In this document: positions 6,080-14,359 of the stretch, piece by piece
How the letters are laid out: each line of letters starts with the position of its first letter
How positions within the stretch are numbered: position 1 is the first letter of the stretch
Assembly (NCBI RefSeq): GCF_000024405.1
Contig: NC_013517.1
Span: 1,736,001-1,800,000 of the forward strand
From: Sebaldella termitidis ATCC 33386
Lineage (GTDB): Bacteria > Fusobacteriota > Fusobacteriia > Fusobacteriales > Leptotrichiaceae
DNA: 64,000 bases
Direction: 5' to 3'
Notes under the pieces: generated by a model
Seen by the model: the letters and a program-made list of their open reading frames with translations, nothing else
What the model was told of the DNA's origin: nothing
The model's database searches: none
Translations under genes and position numbers: made by a program

Positions 6080-6658
6080 GTGGCTGGAAGCAGAAAAAAA
6101 AGAAGAACAACTGTAAGAAGAAAGAAAAAGAAATTTATAAAAAAGAAATATATAACAACTATAGTATCAGTGATCGTTTTCTTAATCAGCTATTTTGGGG
6201 ATAAATATAATCTCGGTCAGAAAGGGATGCCTTCTGATGATACATACAGAGTTCTAAGCGTAAGTGACGGAGACACTGTGACTATAAATGACCACGGTGA
6301 AAAAAGGAAGCTGAGACTATACGGGATTGATGCTCCTGAAAAGGATCAGGAATACGGAATGGAGTCAAGGCAGTATCTTTATGACAGGATTCAGGGAAAG
6401 GATATAAATATAGATTTTATATCAAAAGACAGATACGGGCGTGATATTTCCATTATCTATATAAACGGGGAAAATATAAATGAAACTATGGTAAAGGAAG
6501 GATATGCATGGTGGTATAAAGAATACTCCAAAAAAGATGTTCAGTACAAAATCTATGAGCAAAAAGCAAAATTCGGGGAAAAAGGACTCTGGAGTAAAAA
6601 AAATCCGGTTCCGCCGTGGGACTTCAGGAAAAAAGATAAGAAAAAAAATAAGAGCTAG
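6080..6658 (+). CDS. Membrane-anchored thermonuclease (SNase-like) domain protein
   Basis: A 192-residue protein starting at GTG 6080, five bases after an AGGAGG site. The first 28 residues are extremely basic and are followed by one membrane segment (about 30-43). The SNase domain begins near residue 60, with the calcium/active-site elements of staphylococcal nuclease: SDGDT, RLYGIDAPE and DRYGR. The acidic, glutamate and two arginine catalytic positions are all present. The YAWWY block near the end is also family-typical. It probably cleaves DNA/RNA outside the cytoplasmic membrane in a calcium-dependent way, for nutrient or uptake purposes. Downstream genes follow in the same direction after 72 bp but are probably a separate functional unit. 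Confidence 0.88.
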   Translation: MAGSRKKRRTTVRRKKKKFIKKKYITTIVSVIVFLISYFGDKYNLGQKGMPSDDTYRVLSVSDGDTVTINDHGEKRKLRLYGIDAPEKDQEYGMESRQYLYDRIQGKDINIDFISKDRYGRDISIIYINGENINETMVKEGYAWWYKEYSKKDVQYKIYEQKAKFGEKGLWSKKNPVPPWDFRKKDKKKNKS

Positions 6659-6730: not shown

Positions 6731-7600
6731 ATGGATAAAAATATCGAAAAATTTTATCTGGACTGGGAAGAGAGTGAAGAACAGGGAATGTCATTGACAG
6801 ATAAAGTAAAGGCATATCTGGATGAATATGGAACATATGAAAGGGAAAAGCTGGTAATAGGAATGTGGGAATCAGCTTATGACAATACACCTGATAAGCT
6901 TGTAAAATATCTTACGGAAAATAAGGATAAGTTCCCTAATCTAAAGGAGCTGTACTTTGGAGATATCTCATGGGAAGAGTGTGAGGTTTCCTGGATACAG
7001 AATACTGATCTGGCACCTTTAGTTAATTCTTTTGATCTGGAGACTTTAACTGTAAAAGGCGGATGCGGTCTGAGATTCAAGGATATGAAAAGCAGTTCAC
7101 TGAAAAAGCTTGAGATTATCTCAGGCGGAACTGGGAAATCTGTATTAAATGATATAATAAACGCTGAGTTGCCGTCACTCGAACATCTGGAAATATACAT
7201 GGGAGTAGATAATTACGGTTTTGACGGAAGTATTCAGGATATAATTCCTTTTACAAAAAAAGAGAATTTTCCGAATTTAAAATATCTGGGATTAAAGAAC
7301 AGTGACATAGAAGATGAAATATGTGAGGCTGTATTAGCAGGGGATATTCTTCCGCAGCTTGAAATACTTGATCTTTCTTATGGAACACTTGGCAATAAAG
7401 GTGTAAATATGCTTCTTGCCAATATTGATAAAATATCACATCTAAAAGAACTAAATATACATTATAATTATGCTGCCGAGGATATTCTGAAACAGCTTCA
7501 GGGCGAGCTGGAAAAGGCAGGGGTAAAATCACACTGTGATCAGGGTGAGGCTGACCTTGACGAGGATGACGACTACAGATATCCATATATAACAGAGTAA
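6731..7600 (+). CDS. STM4015-family leucine-rich-repeat-like protein
   Basis: A 289-residue acidic protein. From about residue 75 it has repeated LKELYFGD / LKKLEII / LEHLEIYMG / LKYLGLKNS / LEILDLS / LKELNIHYN units, the LxxLxL pattern of leucine-rich repeats, and it ends in an acidic DEDDD tail. This layout, and its place directly before ATP-grasp-like, phosphatase-like and two radical SAM genes, matches the STM4015 family of the Salmonella STM4011-STM4015 locus (family knowledge). No catalytic motif is visible. LRRs suggest a binding or scaffold role for the complex or its substrate. The ATG is preceded by TAAAGGAGTGG. It leaves only four bases before the next gene, so translation is probably coupled. 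Confidence 0.75.
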   Translation: MDKNIEKFYLDWEESEEQGMSLTDKVKAYLDEYGTYEREKLVIGMWESAYDNTPDKLVKYLTENKDKFPNLKELYFGDISWEECEVSWIQNTDLAPLVNSFDLETLTVKGGCGLRFKDMKSSSLKKLEIISGGTGKSVLNDIINAELPSLEHLEIYMGVDNYGFDGSIQDIIPFTKKENFPNLKYLGLKNSDIEDEICEAVLAGDILPQLEILDLSYGTLGNKGVNMLLANIDKISHLKELNIHYNYAAEDILKQLQGELEKAGVKSHCDQGEADLDEDDDYRYPYITE

Positions 7601-7604
7601 ATTA

Positions 7605-8732
7605 ATGAAAAATACTTTTTTAATAATAGGGGATAATAAGGGAAGAAGAATAAAGACATTTGCCGGCTGCCTTGAGAAGGAAGGAAATTTTCCTTATTTT
7701 ATTCTTGACTGGACAGATTTGCTGGAAAATCCCGGAATTATTGAGGAATTTTTAGAAAAAAGTAATATTGTGAAAATAGAACCCCCTGAAAAAAATACTG
7801 AAATATACAGAAAATTTCTGGAATTCGGAAACGGAGCGGCTCTGCCCGGGGAGGATAAAACAGGGAAGAAAAACAGTGAGATAATAAGAGCTCCGGGAGT
7901 ATGGTTTGACGGAGTAAAAAATGTATTCGGAAAAATGTCGAAAATATTTGATAATTATAAAAATACATATCTTATGTGTGATATAGAAGAGCTTTTGATT
8001 ATGATGGATAAAAAGGCATCATATGAATATCTTTCAGGAGCAGAAAATAGCTTTTTTCTTCCCGAAAGAACAAAAGATTTTCAGAATTATGATGAATTTT
8101 TTGAAACTGTCAAAAATAAAACTGCAAAGTATTTTATAAAACTGAGATGCGGATCAGGCAGTACAGGGGTACTTGCTTATTCATACAATCCAAAGCTGGA
8201 TGAGGAAAAAATATTTACTTCTCTGAATTATTCGGAAGAAAATGGGAGATTGGATTTTTTCAGTACTTACAGGGTAAAAACATATACTGAAAAAAAGGTT
8301 ATAAGAAATATGGTAAACTGGGTTATAGAAAACGGAGCCCATATAGAAAAATGGCTTCCAAAACTTACATATAAAAAATACGGTTTTGATACAAGAGTTT
8401 TTGTAGCGGGAAAAAAGACGGAGTATATGCTGTCAAGACTCAGTACCGGCCCTATTACAAATCTTCATTTGAAAAATATGAGGAAGGAAAGCAGTGAATT
8501 TATGGAGGAAAAGCAGCTGAAACTTCTCAGTGAGGCTTCCGAAGGTGTAATGAGTGTTTTTGAAAAGTCTCTATATGCCGGAATTGATGTTCTGTTGTCG
8601 AATAATATGAAACCTTATATTATTGATGTGAATCCCTTCGGGGATCTGTTTCATAATCTTACTGACTCACCAAGAAATGTGTATTATGCGGAAATAAGAG
8701 AGGCTTTGAAAGAAGCAGCTTTGAAAAGATAA
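7605..8732 (+). CDS. STM4014-family ATP-grasp-like protein
   Basis: A 375-residue protein. A central KYFIKLRCGSGSTGVLAY segment (about residues 178-195) resembles the ATP-grasp nucleotide-binding lid. The late FDTRVFVAGKK and IIDVNPFGD blocks (about 265-275 and 345-353) match the metal-binding end of ATP-grasp ligases. With its position in the operon this supports the STM4014 family. ATP-grasp enzymes join a carboxylate to an amine or thiol through an acyl-phosphate, so the operon probably makes or modifies an amide-containing small molecule or peptide (inference). No good ribosome site is visible; the start ATG follows the upstream stop by four bases, which suggests coupled translation. Confidence 0.75.
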   Translation: MKNTFLIIGDNKGRRIKTFAGCLEKEGNFPYFILDWTDLLENPGIIEEFLEKSNIVKIEPPEKNTEIYRKFLEFGNGAALPGEDKTGKKNSEIIRAPGVWFDGVKNVFGKMSKIFDNYKNTYLMCDIEELLIMMDKKASYEYLSGAENSFFLPERTKDFQNYDEFFETVKNKTAKYFIKLRCGSGSTGVLAYSYNPKLDEEKIFTSLNYSEENGRLDFFSTYRVKTYTEKKVIRNMVNWVIENGAHIEKWLPKLTYKKYGFDTRVFVAGKKTEYMLSRLSTGPITNLHLKNMRKESSEFMEEKQLKLLSEASEGVMSVFEKSLYAGIDVLLSNNMKPYIIDVNPFGDLFHNLTDSPRNVYYAEIREALKEAALKR

Positions 8733-8810
8733 ATTTAATAACTCTGAATCAAAATACAGCTGTATTTATAAAATGCTGTATTTTTGAATATTTAGGAAAA
8801 GAGGATATAA

Positions 8811-9659
8811 ATGCAGGTAAATATGAATGAAATAGTAGGGAAAAGCGATATTCTTTTTCTTACTCTGGACACTCTCAGATATGATGTGGCAGAGCAGGAA
8901 TATCTGGCGGGAAATCTTCCCAATCTTTGTGCTGACAGCGGCTGGGAAAAAAGGCACAGCCCCGGTGATTACACATATTCTTCTCATCATAGTTTTTTTG
9001 CCGGTTTTCTGCCGACGCCGTCTGAATATGTGCCGTTAAATGAAAGAGAATATTTGTTTTCCATGAAAAACAGCATGTTAAAGTATAAGAATCACAGCAA
9101 TATATATTATTTTGACGCTCCGAATATTGTGAAGGCTATGGAGAAAGAAGGGTATAAGACTGTCTGTATAGGCGGGGTAATATTCTTTAATAAAAGTAAT
9201 GAGCTGTGCAGCGTATTGCCTAATATGTTTGCTGAAAGCTACTGGAATCCGAAATTCGGAGTTACCAATCCAAAATCTGTGGAATATCAGGTAAAGCAGG
9301 CTTTAAAGGTTCTGAAAAGTCTTGGGAAAGATGAGAGGATATTTTTATTTTTAAATATATCAGCCATTCACGGACCGAATTATTATTATCTGGAAGAGTA
9401 TAAGAACAAGATGGATGAGTATGATCCCGGAAAAAATGTTCTTGCATCAAAATATGACGGGACAGAAAGTCAGGCTGCTGCTTTAAGATATGTGGATAAA
9501 TGTCTTGAGCCGCTTTTTGAATATATGAGGGAGAGAAATAAAACATTCTGTATAGCACTGTCTGATCACGGGACATGCTATGGAGAAGACGGATTTGAAG
9601 GGCATAATCTTGCACATGAAGTGGTATGGACGGTACCGTATAAACATTTTTTTCTATAA
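8811..9659 (+). CDS. STM4013/SEN3800-family alkaline-phosphatase-superfamily hydrolase
   Basis: A 282-residue protein with the metal-site order of the sulfatase/phosphopentomutase superfamily. These are the TLDTLRYD block (Asp20/Asp25), a threonine in the nucleophile position (Thr55 in DYTYSSHHSFFAGF), and the late ALSDHG block followed by a further His in EGHN. No signal peptide is present, so it acts in the cytoplasm. Cysteine or serine of the formylglycine sulfatase motif (CxPxR) is absent, so phosphoesterase or phosphotransferase chemistry is more likely than sulfatase. It follows the STM4014-like gene after 78 bp that include a small AAAATACAGC/GCTGTATTTT hairpin (about 8751-8785). ATG 8811 is preceded by GAGGA; ATG 8823 is an alternative. 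Confidence 0.78.
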   Translation: MQVNMNEIVGKSDILFLTLDTLRYDVAEQEYLAGNLPNLCADSGWEKRHSPGDYTYSSHHSFFAGFLPTPSEYVPLNEREYLFSMKNSMLKYKNHSNIYYFDAPNIVKAMEKEGYKTVCIGGVIFFNKSNELCSVLPNMFAESYWNPKFGVTNPKSVEYQVKQALKVLKSLGKDERIFLFLNISAIHGPNYYYLEEYKNKMDEYDPGKNVLASKYDGTESQAAALRYVDKCLEPLFEYMRERNKTFCIALSDHGTCYGEDGFEGHNLAHEVVWTVPYKHFFL

Positions 9660-9680
9660 ATATAATCAGGAGGGATAAAG

Positions 9681-10247
9681 ATGGAAAAACTAAAAGAAGC
9701 AGAGAAAATAACAGGGAAAAAACTGAGAAATTTTATGACAGTTGATTTCGGACGTGAGGAGAAGACTGTTCCTGATACGTATTCCACTGTTGTGGAAAAT
9801 AAAAATCTTTATGATTTTTTTGAGGATATAAAATTTGCTTTAGGCGATGATTACACAGTATTTATAGGAACAACAAATTTTCTTGCGCCGATAAATGATA
9901 CTGATATAAAAAAAGGGAAAAGATACTCAGAGCTAGTGATAACAAAGAAAACAACATGGGATAATGTGCTTAGAATGGCAGAATCAGATGCAATAAATTT
10001 TGGTTTTGAGACAGAAGATCTGATAAATAAAATAAAAGAATATGATGAAAAATACGGAATAAGCATTAGTCATGCCGAAACAGACACTGTGGTTCTGGAA
10101 TTCGGAAAACTTCCGGAGGATCTTGTAGAACTGACAAAGGATATATATGAATTCTGCCCTGATATAGTGGATCAGGGAACCGGGGACATAAATTCCATTG
10201 CTGAAAGTCTCGAAGGTACAAGCAGTATATTTTTATGGTGGGATTAG
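9681..10247 (+). CDS. DUF4253-like protein inserted in the radical SAM operon
   Basis: A 188-residue acidic protein with an ideal GGAGGG site before ATG. The C-terminal half has FCPDIVDQG then a final stretch ending in LWWD, as many DUF4253 proteins do. An internal duplication of ELVITKKTTW-like strand and helix may be present. It sits between the STM4013-like and STM4012-like genes, which in the Salmonella arrangement are adjacent, so it is an accessory gain in this lineage. Four bases separate it from the next start. Similar small immunity-type proteins often accompany SUKH proteins, and one occurs at 12971, but no function can be assigned. The family match is only tentative. Confidence 0.6.
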   Translation: MEKLKEAEKITGKKLRNFMTVDFGREEKTVPDTYSTVVENKNLYDFFEDIKFALGDDYTVFIGTTNFLAPINDTDIKKGKRYSELVITKKTTWDNVLRMAESDAINFGFETEDLINKIKEYDEKYGISISHAETDTVVLEFGKLPEDLVELTKDIYEFCPDIVDQGTGDINSIAESLEGTSSIFLWWD

Positions 10248-10250
10248 TTA

Positions 10251-11582
10251 ATGAAAAATATAAATGAGACACAGATAAACCCTTATAACAGCTATATTTA
10301 CTCATTCCCGCATAAAAAATCCTATAGGAATTTTGAAAAGCCTGAAAATCTTGCCGAGCTTTGGAAAAATAAGGATAAAAGCAATATATCGCTGTATATC
10401 CATATTCCTTTTTGTACTAATAAATGCGGTTACTGTAATCTTATGTCTACTACCTGTTTTTCGGCAGGAAGACTGGAACATTATGTAAATAAGCTGATTG
10501 AGGAAATCAAGTCATACGGGGAAACCGGGATATTAGGAGCAGGAAATAATAAAGCAGAATTTTCAAGTGTTATTTTAGGAGGCGGGACTCCTACTGTTCT
10601 GGATACAGGTTTAATGGAAAAGCTTCTTATGTCATTGGAACAATATCTGGATATAGACTTTGAAAATACCTTTTTTTCAATGGAAACTTCGCCAAAAACA
10701 CTTTCAAATGAGTATTTCCTGCTTTTGAAAAAATATTATCTGAACAGATTAAGCATTGGAGTACAAAGTTTTTTTGATAATGAACTGAAAGCGATATACA
10801 GAAATGAGCTAAAACAGAATATAGACAGCGCTTTGAAAATATTGTTTTCTTCAGAAAACAGCATAGAAATCAGAAATCTTGATCTTATTTACGGACTTCC
10901 GGGACAGACAATGAAAAGCTGGGAGGAGTCGCTCTGCAGAGTGATAAGTCATAAACCAGAGGAAATATTTATATATCCCTTATATGTAAGGGAAAAAACC
11001 AGATTATTTGAAAATTATAAGGCAGATCATGATCTGATGGGGAAAATGTATGATAATGCCGTGAGAATTCTCAGCGAAAACGGATATATACAAACCTCCA
11101 TGCGAAATTTTATATCAGAAGGAATGAAAGATAAATTATACCCGGATTATTCCTGTCAGGAAAATAAAATGCTCGGAATAGGATGCGGTGCAAGGTCATA
11201 CATAGGAAATGTACATTATTCAAGGAAGTATGCAGTGGAGGATAAAAATATAAACAGTATAATAGATGATTATCTTAAGGAAGAAAATTTTGCTTTTGCT
11301 GAGTACGGATATAAATTATCAGAAGAAGAACAGAAAATAAAATATATTTTAAAATCAATATTAAAAATAACCGGATTTAATACTGAAGATTACAGAGAAA
11401 AATTTCATACTGAGCCTTTAGAGGAGTTTAGTGAGCTTGAGAAATTGATAAATGAGGGTTATCTGATCAGGGAAGGAAACAGGATTTTTCCTTCGGCAAA
11501 GGGTTTGAAGTATTCTGACTATATAGGGACATTGTTTATAACTGACGGGATAAAGAGAAAAATGGAAGAATTTACGGAGTAA
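10251..11582 (+). CDS. STM4012-family radical SAM protein (HemN-like)
   Basis: A 443-residue protein with the radical SAM cluster motif CTNKCGYC at Cys55/Cys59/Cys62, preceded by the HemN-type YIHIPFC strand. The SAM-binding GGGTPT (about residue 110), the METSP strand and the SIGVQSF block follow. A HemN-like C-terminal domain (KYILKSILKITG) ends the protein. Family knowledge assigns this architecture to the coproporphyrinogen-III-oxidase-like branch. The operon context (STM4012) makes haem synthesis unlikely, and a methyltransferase or anaerobic modification role is more plausible. The ATG is four bases after the DUF4253-like stop; translation appears coupled and the next gene starts three bases after this one. 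Confidence 0.85.
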   Translation: MKNINETQINPYNSYIYSFPHKKSYRNFEKPENLAELWKNKDKSNISLYIHIPFCTNKCGYCNLMSTTCFSAGRLEHYVNKLIEEIKSYGETGILGAGNNKAEFSSVILGGGTPTVLDTGLMEKLLMSLEQYLDIDFENTFFSMETSPKTLSNEYFLLLKKYYLNRLSIGVQSFFDNELKAIYRNELKQNIDSALKILFSSENSIEIRNLDLIYGLPGQTMKSWEESLCRVISHKPEEIFIYPLYVREKTRLFENYKADHDLMGKMYDNAVRILSENGYIQTSMRNFISEGMKDKLYPDYSCQENKMLGIGCGARSYIGNVHYSRKYAVEDKNINSIIDDYLKEENFAFAEYGYKLSEEEQKIKYILKSILKITGFNTEDYREKFHTEPLEEFSELEKLINEGYLIREGNRIFPSAKGLKYSDYIGTLFITDGIKRKMEEFTE

Positions 11583-11584
11583 TT

Positions 11585-12436
11585 ATGGAATATACAATTT
11601 ATTACAGAAATTATTTAAGATACTGTAATTATAAATGCACTTACTGTCCTTTTTCAAAATATAAATTAAATAATAATGATCTGGAAAAGGATAAGATATA
11701 CTTTAGAAAATTTACCGATTTTTTGAAAAAAAGTACGGATAAATTTAGAATTTTTATTGCACCTAGAGGAGAAGTACTGAATTTCGATTATTATAAATCA
11801 GGAATTCTGATGTTGGCAAATCTGGATAATATCATGGAAATTGTAGTTCAGACTAATTTAAGTGGGGAGCTGAAATGGCTGGAAAATGTTAATAAAGATA
11901 AGGTTATATTATGGACGACATATCATCCCGATGAAACCGGACTTGAAGATTTTTATAAGAATATAGAGTTTCTTGACAGGGAAAATATAAAATTTTCTGT
12001 GGGGACAGTGGGTGTTCATGAAAATTTTGATATGATTTTCAGATTAAAAGAAAAAATGAAGCTTTTGAAAAATACAAGTCCTTATTTATGGATTAATGCT
12101 TATAAGGATGAGAAAAATTATTATTCTGAAAGAGATATAAAATTATTAACAGAAGCAGATCCGTTTTTTGAAATAAATCTGAAAAATTACATATCTGGAG
12201 GGTGTGAATGTAGAACCGGTGAAAATGTATTCTGGATGGAATATAACGGAATAATACATAGATGCTGGCAGGACAGGAAAAATCTGGGGAACATATTTAA
12301 GGAAAATATTAAAGATATGAAGGTCAGTGACGGATGCCGTTATTCCAGATGCACATGTTATATTGGGTATACTAATATGAAAGAACTGAATTTAGGAATG
12401 ATATATAAAAAGAGCCTGCTTGGACGAATGATATAG
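11585..12436 (+). CDS. STM4011-family radical SAM protein
   Basis: A 283-residue protein with the cluster motif CNYKCTYC at Cys14/Cys18/Cys21, very near the N-terminus. It has an IAPRGE strand and a C-terminal cysteine-rich region (CECRTG, HRCWQD, CRYSRCTC) reminiscent of SPASM/Twitch auxiliary iron-sulfur sites. The small size and tail cysteines fit the STM4011 family, which always accompanies STM4012. Together they give the operon two distinct radical SAM chemistries. The gene starts three bases after the preceding stop and is followed within one base by a strong terminator, so it closes the operon. Confidence 0.85.
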   Translation: MEYTIYYRNYLRYCNYKCTYCPFSKYKLNNNDLEKDKIYFRKFTDFLKKSTDKFRIFIAPRGEVLNFDYYKSGILMLANLDNIMEIVVQTNLSGELKWLENVNKDKVILWTTYHPDETGLEDFYKNIEFLDRENIKFSVGTVGVHENFDMIFRLKEKMKLLKNTSPYLWINAYKDEKNYYSERDIKLLTEADPFFEINLKNYISGGCECRTGENVFWMEYNGIIHRCWQDRKNLGNIFKENIKDMKVSDGCRYSRCTCYIGYTNMKELNLGMIYKKSLLGRMI

Positions 12437-12471
12437 GGAAGCACAATAAATGCACAGCTGCTTCCTTTTTT
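12437..12471 (+). terminator. Intrinsic terminator closing the STM4015-STM4011 operon
   Basis: GGAAGCA (12437-12443) pairs with TGCTTCC (12459-12465), followed directly by six T. It begins right after the stop codon of the last radical SAM gene. Confidence 0.85.
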
Positions 12472-12548
12472 CCTCGCAGAGTACTAAAATATTCCGGATT
12501 ATTTAATAAAATGAATCGGATAATATACAAGATTTTTTGGGAGGAATG

Positions 12549-12947
12549 ATGAGGAAAATTATTTTTCTGATATTTTTATGCTTATTTTTGGCTGTTAATG
12601 CAGATACTGAAAATGTAAAATTTATGGATAATATTAAGGAAGAAGCGAAAAAACTCGGAGCCGGTGAGATAAAAAGGTGTAAAATGATGCCTGAAAAAGA
12701 AAGGCAGCTATGGGCTGCGAACTATACAGGAAGAGCTGAGGAGTTGAATTCTGTGATAAAAATATTGGGTGAGGATGTAAAAAAAGCATATGAAGCAAAA
12801 AATAATTTTGCAGCCGAGGAAGGGAAAAAAACAATAGACCTTTTGATAAGAAGGACAGCTGTATATCTTTATTTTAACGGGATATACAGAGATAACTGCA
12901 ATTCTGGAGAAATAGACGAGCTGTTTGATAATATGTTTTTTGAATAA
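12549..12947 (+). CDS. Small secreted protein of unknown function
   Basis: About 132 residues starting at ATG 12549, four bases after GGGAGG; TTG 12537 and ATG 12546 overlap or abut the ribosome site and are unlikely. A signal peptide covers residues about 1-18 (KKI then hydrophobic, cleaved near VNA). The mature part is helical and charged, with two cysteines (in RCKMM and DNCNSG) that could form a disulfide in the periplasm. No family recognised. It lies after the terminator of the radical SAM operon and 23 bp before the SUKH gene, so the two are probably co-transcribed. Confidence 0.6.
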   Translation: MRKIIFLIFLCLFLAVNADTENVKFMDNIKEEAKKLGAGEIKRCKMMPEKERQLWAANYTGRAEELNSVIKILGEDVKKAYEAKNNFAAEEGKKTIDLLIRRTAVYLYFNGIYRDNCNSGEIDELFDNMFFE

Positions 12948-12970: not shown

Positions 12971-13585
12971 ATGAGTTTAGCAGACAGATATTTTGAAGGA
13001 TTGGAAGAATTGATGACAGATGAGCAGATAGAAAAATTTGAAATAATACCGCCGGCAACAGAAGATGAAATATCAAGGCTGGAAAAATTCTATCCTGACT
13101 GCCCGGAGTCGCTTTTGGACTTATGGAGGATGAAGAGGGGAACATACCATGAAGAAATAGATGATGTATATATTTTGCTTCCTGTTTTGAGTTCTGATGT
13201 AGAGGGCGGGGAATATCCCTATTATCTAAAATCCTGTGTTCAAATATTAGAGGAAGCAGAAAAGAATTACAATAAACAAAGTATAGAGGAAATATACGGA
13301 GAAGACTGGATTAAAGAAAACAGCGAAGATTTTGACAAAAGAATAAAAATGAATATTTCACATAATAAATGGCTGAATTTTGCGGATTGTATAAATAATG
13401 GCGGAACATCACGTCTTTTTATAGACTTTGATCCGAAAGGAAAAGGGGTAAAAGGGCAGATAATACGTTATTTACATGATCCTGACAGTTATATTGTCAT
13501 AGCAAACAGCTTTGATGAATATCTGGAGAACATAATAGGAGAAGAGTATCCTTTTAGTCATATATATGAGGAGTGGGATGATTGA
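12971..13585 (+). CDS. SMI1/KNR4 (SUKH) family protein
   Basis: A 204-residue acidic protein with the SUKH layout. An early helix with PPATEDEISRLEKFYP (about residues 27-42) is followed by the short helix ESLLDLWRMKRG, and the strand pair WLNFADCINNGG / RLFIDFDP / GQIIRYLHDPDS occupies residues 132-175. A final SFDEYLENI helix closes the domain. SUKH proteins are widespread immunity proteins for polymorphic toxins and also occur as housekeeping regulators. No toxin is adjacent here, so it may be an orphan immunity protein. The GGAGA site is eight bases upstream of ATG. Confidence 0.75.
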   Translation: MSLADRYFEGLEELMTDEQIEKFEIIPPATEDEISRLEKFYPDCPESLLDLWRMKRGTYHEEIDDVYILLPVLSSDVEGGEYPYYLKSCVQILEEAEKNYNKQSIEEIYGEDWIKENSEDFDKRIKMNISHNKWLNFADCINNGGTSRLFIDFDPKGKGVKGQIIRYLHDPDSYIVIANSFDEYLENIIGEEYPFSHIYEEWDD

Positions 13586-13705: not shown

Positions 13706-14359
13706 CTAAATATCAAATAATTCTAAAATTTCATAAGGAGCAGTGAAAATATAGTCGGCATTATTTTCTTCAAATTCTTTTCTATCTCTGAACCCCCATA
13801 AAACTCCTGCCGACCCCATACCAGCATTATGTCCTGTCAGAATATCCGTTTTGGAATCACCGATATAGAGAATTTCATCAGGATTCAGATTCATTAGTTC
13901 TGCGATTTCCAATGCGGAGTCAGGAGCCGGTTTTTTCGGAATATTATTTCTTTCACCAAAAACCCCGAAAAAATCTATGTCAGAAAAAAATTTTTCAACC
14001 AGTTTATTGGTATAATCATTTCTTTTATTTGAATTGATTCCTAGTTTTATATTATTTGCTGTAAGAACTTTTAATACTTCACAAATGCCGTCATAAGGTC
14101 TTGTATCATTCATATAAGATCTGTCATATATTTCAAGAAAGTCCTTTAAAGCCTGCTCCAGTATAATTTCTTCCGTCATTTCGGGAAAGCTTCTTTTTAT
14201 CAAATCCCTGAATCCTTTTCCTATTTTCTTTTTATATTCTTCATAGGTATGGAGCGGCTGGCCGTATTTTTCAAGTGTGCTGTTTACACTGTTTCCTAAA
14301 TCATAAATAGTATCCAGAATTGTGCCGTCAAGATCGAATATTACACCTTTATATTTCAT
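13706..14359 (-). CDS. HAD-superfamily phosphatase (phosphoglycolate phosphatase-like)
   Basis: A 217-residue protein with HAD motif I FDLDGTILDT (residues 8-17; the two aspartates are the nucleophile and acid/base). Motif II is in GINSNKRND and motif III/IV is the KKPAPDS then IGDSKTDI block. The cap helix pattern KIGKGFRDLIKRSFPE is that of the Gph/PGPase subgroup. It lies 104 bp after the PTS EIIC stop on the same strand, so it may dephosphorylate sugar or aldolase products of that pathway (inference), but it could also be a general phosphoglycolate phosphatase. An AGAGAGG site precedes ATG. Confidence 0.85.
   Translation of the reverse strand: MKYKGVIFDLDGTILDTIYDLGNSVNSTLEKYGQPLHTYEEYKKKIGKGFRDLIKRSFPEMTEEIILEQALKDFLEIYDRSYMNDTRPYDGICEVLKVLTANNIKLGINSNKRNDYTNKLVEKFFSDIDFFGVFGERNNIPKKPAPDSALEIAELMNLNPDEILYIGDSKTDILTGHNAGMGSAGVLWGFRDRKEFEENNADYIFTAPYEILELFDI

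Follow-up and report, generated by a model that had tools for sequence, protein, structure and literature searches.

The five genes of the STM4015-STM4011 set form one operon in a stretch of 64,000 nucleotides from the genome of Sebaldella termitidis ATCC 33386 (contig NC_013517.1, positions 1,736,001 to 1,800,000; this whole stretch is called the window, and coordinates are counted from its first nucleotide). The leucine-rich-repeat (LRR) protein of this operon, STM4015, carries a near-invariant C-terminal glutamate, and the adjacent gene encodes an ATP-grasp protein, STM4014, which is nearest in sequence to ligases that join amino acids to terminal glutamates. The invariant terminal glutamate of one partner and the kinship of the other are two independent lines leading to the same reaction. 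We propose that STM4014 joins an amine to the terminal glutamate of STM4015, and that two radical S-adenosylmethionine (SAM) enzymes and phosphatases remodel the group there (probability about 0.55). That STM4014 acts on this glutamate appears a little safer, and the complete scheme of adduct formation, remodelling and dephosphorylation would rank below this core claim.

Six open reading frames (ORFs), all on the forward (+) strand, lie between 6731 and 12436 in the order STM4015-STM4014-STM4013-(DUF4253)-STM4012-STM4011, separated by 4, 78, 21, 3 and 2 bp. Each of the five core proteins exceeds the curated cut-off of its NCBIfam model, in agreement with an earlier note on this DNA that had recognized the STM4015-STM4011 locus; its ORF positions and family calls, which stand far above chance, were likewise confirmed. 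The two wider gaps given in that note, 21 and 78 bp, agree with the measured values, but three gaps described as 3-4 bp are in fact 4, 3 and 2 bp. The Salmonella locus contains the same five families in the same order and on one strand, whereas the Sebaldella operon has a DUF4253 gene between STM4013 and STM4012 and no HAD gene directly after STM4011. The note had considered the function of the locus undescribed, and in the literature searched there was indeed no functional study of STM4011-STM4015; the Salmonella literature has table mentions only (STM4015 in a positive-selection screen and a sigma54 binding site in STM4013). A paper on iron starvation in Bacteroides (PMC10434189) proved to be unrelated.

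The terminal glutamate of STM4015 and its predicted ligase

The proposed carrier or substrate is the STM4015-family LRR protein of 289 amino acids (6731-7600; NF038076, 304.6 bits against a cut-off of 275). Its C-terminus is DLDEDDDYRYPYITE, in which an acidic linker, EADLDEDDD (residues 273-281; 7547-7573), precedes the tail RYPYITE (7577-7597); the last residue, Glu289 (codon at 7595-7597), is the proposed site of an amide or isopeptide bond. In an alignment of STM4015 from seven genera every protein ends in glutamate, and among the 118 distinct STM4015 proteins collected across phyla from all loci the last residue is glutamate in 116, with arginine at -7 and tyrosine at -6 in 106 each. The preceding segment from -22 to -8 is acidic (mean Asp plus Glu content 0.39 against 0.17 for the whole protein; mean charge -5.2, n=118). 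The STM4015 proteins of E. coli (MNPMFTE) and Salmonella (MNAMYTE) have no tyrosine at -6 and retain the glutamate. A terminal glutamate was found in none of 19 LRR proteins outside the STM4015 family that were weakly matched by the same profile, and in at most about 10% of the members of the other four core families. The near-invariant terminal glutamate of STM4015 is first noted in this analysis.

The AlphaFold2 (AF2) model of STM4015 has a mean predicted local distance difference test score (pLDDT) of 93.8, and its best match in the PDB is 2ra8 from Bacteroides fragilis (Q64V53; TM-score over the query, TMq, 0.86), a structural genomics entry of 2007. The same tail, ...YPMITE, is present in 2ra8, before an inferred purification tag.

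The tail is also conserved on STM4015 proteins encoded away from the enzymes. A Myxococcales genome contains one enzyme locus (L081) without an adjacent STM4015 gene and six STM4015 paralogues on six other contigs, with bodies 27-44% identical, all ending in R[YF]xxxxE; two carry a WGR domain, and one stands on an ORF with HEAT repeats. A search of this genome with the DNA pattern of the tail gave 11 matches, five of which were STM4015 paralogues, and no closed long ORF was found among the others. Since these dispersed paralogues all carry the tail, the simplest reading of the sequences is that the tail is under selection for recognition or modification by a single enzyme set. In the genome of the window the same kind of search gave matches at the level of chance (28 against 25 in the control), and among the 19 of the 28 that were inspected only STM4015 combined a long ORF, an LRR body and an acidic linker; with matches at that level, the occurrence of the tail on non-LRR proteins was rejected.

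Multiple copies of STM4015 are also found within cyanobacterial loci (L056, L060, L066 and L068), with three to four paralogues each, some interleaved with WD40-type repeat proteins. Tail remnants of about 40 amino acids were observed in L059 and L066, and the tandem copies look as if they had been gained and lost. In a Bacteroidetes locus (L079, 1652-2695) a gene for a protein with a WGR and a DNA/RNA-ligase-like domain stands just before two STM4015 genes.

The predicted tail-loading enzyme is the STM4014-family ATP-grasp protein of 375 amino acids (7605-8732; NF038074, 291 bits against 175). Eleven residues are invariant among 51 sequences, K136, K179, E248, K253, D262, R264, R278, T285, N286, D328 and N343, as expected for an active ATP-grasp enzyme. 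After its own family, the next-best NCBIfam matches for the 51 members were rimK_fam (28 members; best E-value 1.6e-9), MptN (24), LysX_arch (19) and CofF (19), and D-Ala ligase models matched only 6. The TNLHL segment of STM4014 aligns with SNLHRGG of RimK, and a profile search of the PDB returned RimK first and LysX second. With the AF2 model (pLDDT 91.6), a Foldseek search of 350,542 chains gave 3vpb (ArgX with LysW) and 5k2m (LysX/ArgX with LysW-gamma-AAA) as top matches, and RimK with RpsF (5zk6) at rank 13. With its catalytic residues intact, STM4014 falls within the broad RimK family. It is not an orthologue of LysX/ArgX, as it forms a family of its own with weak matches to TIGR02144 (best 1e-6). 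The earlier description as ATP-grasp-like can thus be refined, the nearest relatives being RimK, MptN, LysX and CofF. Together with the tail and the dispersed paralogues that carry it, these relationships give strong comparative support to the suggestion of the earlier note that the LRR protein might serve as a substrate scaffold.

Proposed remodelling enzymes, related systems and alternative readings

The first radical SAM enzyme, STM4012 (443 amino acids; 10251-11582; NF006067, 526 bits against 380), is HemN-like and has an invariant C55xxxC59xxC62 motif. In the PDB it matches HemN along its length (6e-58) and the class-C methyltransferase NocN (4e-37), and thus resembles the group of NosN, NocN and HemN. 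HemN has a fourth cysteine after CxxxCxxC, whereas this cysteine is missing from the STM4012 family, with leucine at the position in Sebaldella. The second, STM4011 (283 amino acids; 11585-12436; NF038073, 341 bits against 200), contains the invariant radical SAM triad C14/C18/C21 and five invariant auxiliary cysteines of the SPASM/twitch type, C209-x12-G222-x4-C227, C251, C256 and C258 (CX12GX4C...CX4CXC). It resembles the SPASM/twitch peptide maturases SkfB and PapB, the match to the auxiliary-cluster region of SkfB being 1e-4.

The third enzyme, STM4013 (SEN3800 family; 282 amino acids; 8811-9659), is a hydrolase of the alkaline-phosphatase/sulfatase superfamily (NF038075, 399 bits against 250; Pfam Sulfatase, 3.6e-13). 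Its invariant residues, D20, T55, H59, H187, D252, H253, H265 and H269, probably form a metal site with a threonine nucleophile, as assigned by analogy. The earlier note had called this protein phosphatase-like; the call holds for STM4013, and the theme is wider than noted, with recurrent additional HAD phosphatases. In six loci (L062, L069, L071, L072, L076 and L079) a HAD_2-type gene adjoins STM4013 or overlaps it. Fusions of STM4011 with a Cof-type HAD domain occur in Bacteroides, in Clostridia and in one further genome of Fusobacteriota, whereas Salmonella and E. coli have a separate Cof-type HAD gene after STM4011. The HAD phosphatase is thus a recurrent sixth component, and the presence of two subfamilies at two places suggests, at the level of sequence, its independent recruitment, from which we infer a phosphorylated intermediate or substrate in the pathway.

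With the glutamate of the tail shared by the family and a glutamate-type ligase encoded alongside, the operon probably builds a chemical group on the tail with the help of radical enzymes. STM4015 would be a folded LRR protein with a flexible acidic tail and a strictly required terminal glutamate. STM4014 would activate a carboxylate of Glu289 and join to it an amine, for which an amino acid or a phosphorylated amine is the likeliest candidate; the tethered group would then be modified by STM4012 (HemN/NosN-like) and STM4011 (SPASM/twitch-like), and phosphate would be removed by STM4013 and, or instead, in many lineages by the extra HAD phosphatase. Recognition of the tail would take place in trans, so that one enzyme set could serve several LRR proteins.

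A close parallel is the amino-group carrier LysW. The C-terminal glutamate of LysW is loaded by LysX with alpha-aminoadipate at its gamma-carboxyl (PMC10433800), and amino-group carriers use acidic C-terminal extensions (PMC9303977). LysW and STM4015 have in common an acidic C-terminal extension ending in glutamate, the LysX (ArgX) ligases are of the closest solved fold to STM4014 (3vpb, 5k2m), and the substrate is built in those systems while tethered (PMC10433800, PMC9303977), as proposed here for STM4015. In contrast, STM4015 is an LRR protein instead of a small zinc-binding carrier, its tail RYPYITE lacks EDWGE, and the downstream enzymes are radical SAM proteins and phosphatases, with no LysZ, LysY, LysJ or LysK among the core genes. 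The STM4015 system would work like a LysW carrier but is not filed as a member, for it differs in the EDWGE motif and zinc domain, in LysX orthology and in LysZ/Y/J/K.

Two further systems share parts of the scheme. RimK adds glutamate to the C-terminus of ribosomal protein S6 (PMC4741518), and there, as proposed here, a ligase of the RimK family acts on the C-terminal end of a protein; in the present case that protein would be an LRR protein encoded beside its ligase in one operon, with four further enzymes. In the pearlin pathways (3-thiaglutamate and 3-thiahomoleucine) the product derives from an amino acid and is assembled at the C-terminal end of a carrier, one step being a radical SAM reaction (PMC9303977). 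Loading of pearlins depends on a peptide aminoacyl-tRNA ligase (PEARL) and aminoacyl-tRNA, whereas the ligase here is of the ATP-grasp type, and no PEARL was found among the operon proteins.

Several observations weigh against tethered synthesis on the glutamate of STM4015. The operon encodes neither a hydrolase for release, such as LysK, nor a kinase or a reductase; STM4015 has no EDWGE at its end and is no zinc-binding domain; and whereas LysW systems share one carrier, this is not the general pattern here, where as many as four or six LRR paralogues may be present. Two STM4015 members lack the terminal glutamate, both extra paralogues in multi-copy cyanobacterial operons (L068 and L108). 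The last nine residues of the AF2 model have a pLDDT of 82, and because of this the tail may dock on STM4015 itself. Since the inositol-pyrophosphate kinases PPIP5K and Asp1 rank near the top of the Foldseek list, with similar E-values and lower TM-scores over the target (TMt), a kinase role for STM4014 is possible from the predicted fold alone.

Among the alternatives, the LRR proteins themselves could be the end product, with a permanent C-terminal modification or cofactor matured by the radical SAM enzymes, as for RimK on S6, and nothing released. This is a rather unlikely but substantial alternative. In agreement with it, operons of cyanobacteria hold three to four copies, the six dispersed Myxococcales paralogues have varied bodies (some with WGR or HEAT), each genome has one STM4014, and the loci inspected showed no release peptidase. 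On the other hand, STM4015 is single-copy in many genomes, and it would be unusual for one protein modification to require two radical SAM enzymes together with phosphatases. The proposed tethering to Glu289 would accommodate either outcome, LysW-like release of the product or a lasting C-terminal group, and the group may remain attached to STM4015, because a release peptidase is missing from the loci inspected and several LRR proteins can use one enzyme set. It is tentatively suggested, at clearly less than even odds, that one ligase and two radical SAM enzymes act in trans to build a new protein-bound group on the terminal glutamate of one or several LRR proteins, as a hitherto undescribed post-translational modification or carrier chemistry.

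Processing of the tail as a ribosomally synthesized and post-translationally modified peptide, or as a peptide-derived cofactor, with tail residues cross-linked or excised (as a Tyr-Glu pair like that of pyrroloquinoline quinone (PQQ), or as a graspetide-like macrocycle), is improbable. The conserved R-Y and E of the tail, the kinship of STM4011 with the peptide maturases SkfB and PapB, and the presence of graspetide ligases, also ATP-grasp proteins, lower in the Foldseek list are consistent with such logic. The tyrosine is, however, replaced while the glutamate is kept (NAMYTE in Salmonella, MNPMFTE in E. coli, and also WKTPMLTE and WRSPSMTE), some tails, for example RYVAVGE, are devoid of Thr, Ser and Lys acceptors, the loci inspected showed neither a protease nor a transporter, and the LRR body far exceeds the size of a leader. 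A PQQ-like Tyr-Glu cross-link was set aside because tyrosine varies and the glutamate is near-invariant. Nor is the tail that of a graspetide with omega-ester or omega-amide bonds, whose core combines Thr/Ser/Lys acceptors with Glu/Asp donors, as RYVAVGE and similar tails lack the acceptors and only the last residue is near-invariant.

About equally improbable is a role of the tail as a docking motif, with STM4015 as a non-catalytic scaffold bringing the enzymes together and STM4014 acting as a ligase or kinase on a free metabolite. LRR proteins usually bind partners, the tail is placed by AF2 with moderate confidence, and the fold of STM4014 is similar to PPIP5K/Asp1 kinases. A docking motif, however, rarely demands an exact last residue with a free carboxylate, as found in 116 of 118 members, and sequence profiles favour RimK, MptN, LysX and CofF over the kinases.

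Distribution of the five-gene set

The distribution was examined by scanning contigs with an STM4013 profile, which gave at least 563 confirmed relatives among at least 591 candidates; 80 loci were kept and, with six annotated plasmid loci, 86 were examined. The scan loci belong to Bacillota, Cyanobacteriota, Myxococcota, Chloroflexota, Planctomycetota, Verrucomicrobiota, Actinomycetota, Bacteroidota and Pseudomonadota, and the set is also carried by Deinococcota. All five genes occur together in 79 of the 86 loci, and contig ends truncate several of the other seven. The order 4015-4014-4013-4012-4011 in the Sebaldella operon, where DUF4253 is the sole insertion, is also that of L002-L005, L007 and most other loci. 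The gene-neighbourhood survey proposed in the earlier note thus yielded a strictly co-occurring set. That note had also allowed that the genes might belong to known unrelated families, and this fails because they co-occur as one family set.

Within phyla the set is sparse, being found in about 3 of 98 Fusobacteriota genomes and 3 of 149 genomes in the phylum of Streptomyces, with further within-phylum counts of 2/247, 4/146 and 6/249; in the last case STM4014 and STM4015 exceed their cut-offs in exactly the same six genomes. Among E. coli the system is present in 154 of 5,426 complete genomes, and in strain LF82 the order is 4015-4014-4013-4012-4011-HAD with overlapping gene ends. The locus on a Salmonella plasmid consists of the five core genes plus HAD. 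Anaerobic expression, suggested by the earlier note, is not obviously needed because many carriers, such as Streptomyces, Deinococcus and cyanobacteria, presumably live aerobically. Decayed forms were also observed. On a plasmid of Bacteroides finegoldii (L006, 5642-9656) an internal deletion leaves STM4013 and STM4012 as fragments and retains STM4015, STM4014 and an STM4011-HAD fusion, and in a planctomycete genome (G1245, locus L126) STM4015, STM4014 and STM4011 are present as fragments with stops. That such modification of C-termini in trans extends across ten phyla or more is a suggestion held with less confidence than the reaction itself.

A chance assembly of unrelated genes, or an anti-phage or immunity locus, is very improbable: a SUKH gene lies 0.5 kb downstream, DUF4253 and SUKH are of the kind found in polymorphic-toxin immunity arrays, and one generic PADLOC match was obtained for STM4012, but in 79 of 86 loci from many phyla the five genes are grouped with neither DUF4253 nor SUKH beside them. 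As a defence system the operon was rejected, since PADLOC gave nothing specific, with no match for STM4015, STM4014, STM4013 or STM4011, and the neighbourhood survey contradicts this assignment.

Possible transcription signals, neighbouring genes and biological meaning

The inserted gene encodes a DUF4253 protein of 188 amino acids (9681-10247; PF14062, E-value 4e-26), which stands outside the core system. Another genome of the genus, that of a sister species (L090), has it in the same position, and no DUF4253 match was detected in any other surveyed locus, indicating a lineage-specific insertion, as judged from the loci compared, and supporting the earlier view of this gene as an accessory gain.

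The gap between STM4014 and STM4013 contains a predicted RNA hairpin followed by a U-run (8743-8796; minimum free energy, MFE, -13.9, z -4.0). None of 200 shuffled sequences was as stable, and the stem, AAATACAGC/GCTGTATTTTT, is identical in the sister species. This hairpin is a possible attenuator or processing site and may keep the later genes at lower expression. A second, terminator-like hairpin with a 9-bp stem and a 15-nucleotide loop, followed by T6, is located at the end of STM4011 (12436-12470; MFE -11.2, z -2.1), and 7 of 200 shuffled sequences fold as well. A terminator after STM4011, as the earlier note had claimed, is plausible but not strong: the hairpin and T-run are present but modest, and they are not conserved in the sister species, in which the next gene, for a predicted secreted protein, starts about 16 bp after STM4011, too close for a terminator to fit between them.

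The gene immediately before the operon, on the same strand, encodes a membrane-anchored, staphylococcal-nuclease-like (SNase) protein (6080-6658) and is also present in the sister species. Downstream of the operon are genes for a small predicted secreted protein without family (12546-12947), found beside the operon in the sister species as well, and for a SUKH (SMI1_KNR4) protein (12971-13585), a neighbour kept there too. A HAD gene at 13706-14359 is on the other strand and was not counted in the system. In 12 other loci (L002, L003, L007, L067, L074, L078, L080, L082, L083, L087, L088 and L089) a DUF6745 protein and a partner of about 100 amino acids (GEVTGHxH...HEEH...RQREY) adjoin the operon, often divergently; the lineages concerned are aerobic (Actinomycetota, Deinococcota, Chloroflexota, a planctomycete and Methylobacterium).

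STM4011-STM4015 are placeholder names for a widespread set of genes, present also in some E. coli and Salmonella. The pairing of the tail with the ligase narrows the question of this operon to the C-terminal modification of STM4015 by STM4014, and the proposed role of STM4015 would give a use to 2ra8, a solved but unexplained structure. If the proposal is true, a repeat-protein carrier would be added to protein-tethered biosynthesis and linked to radical SAM chemistry.

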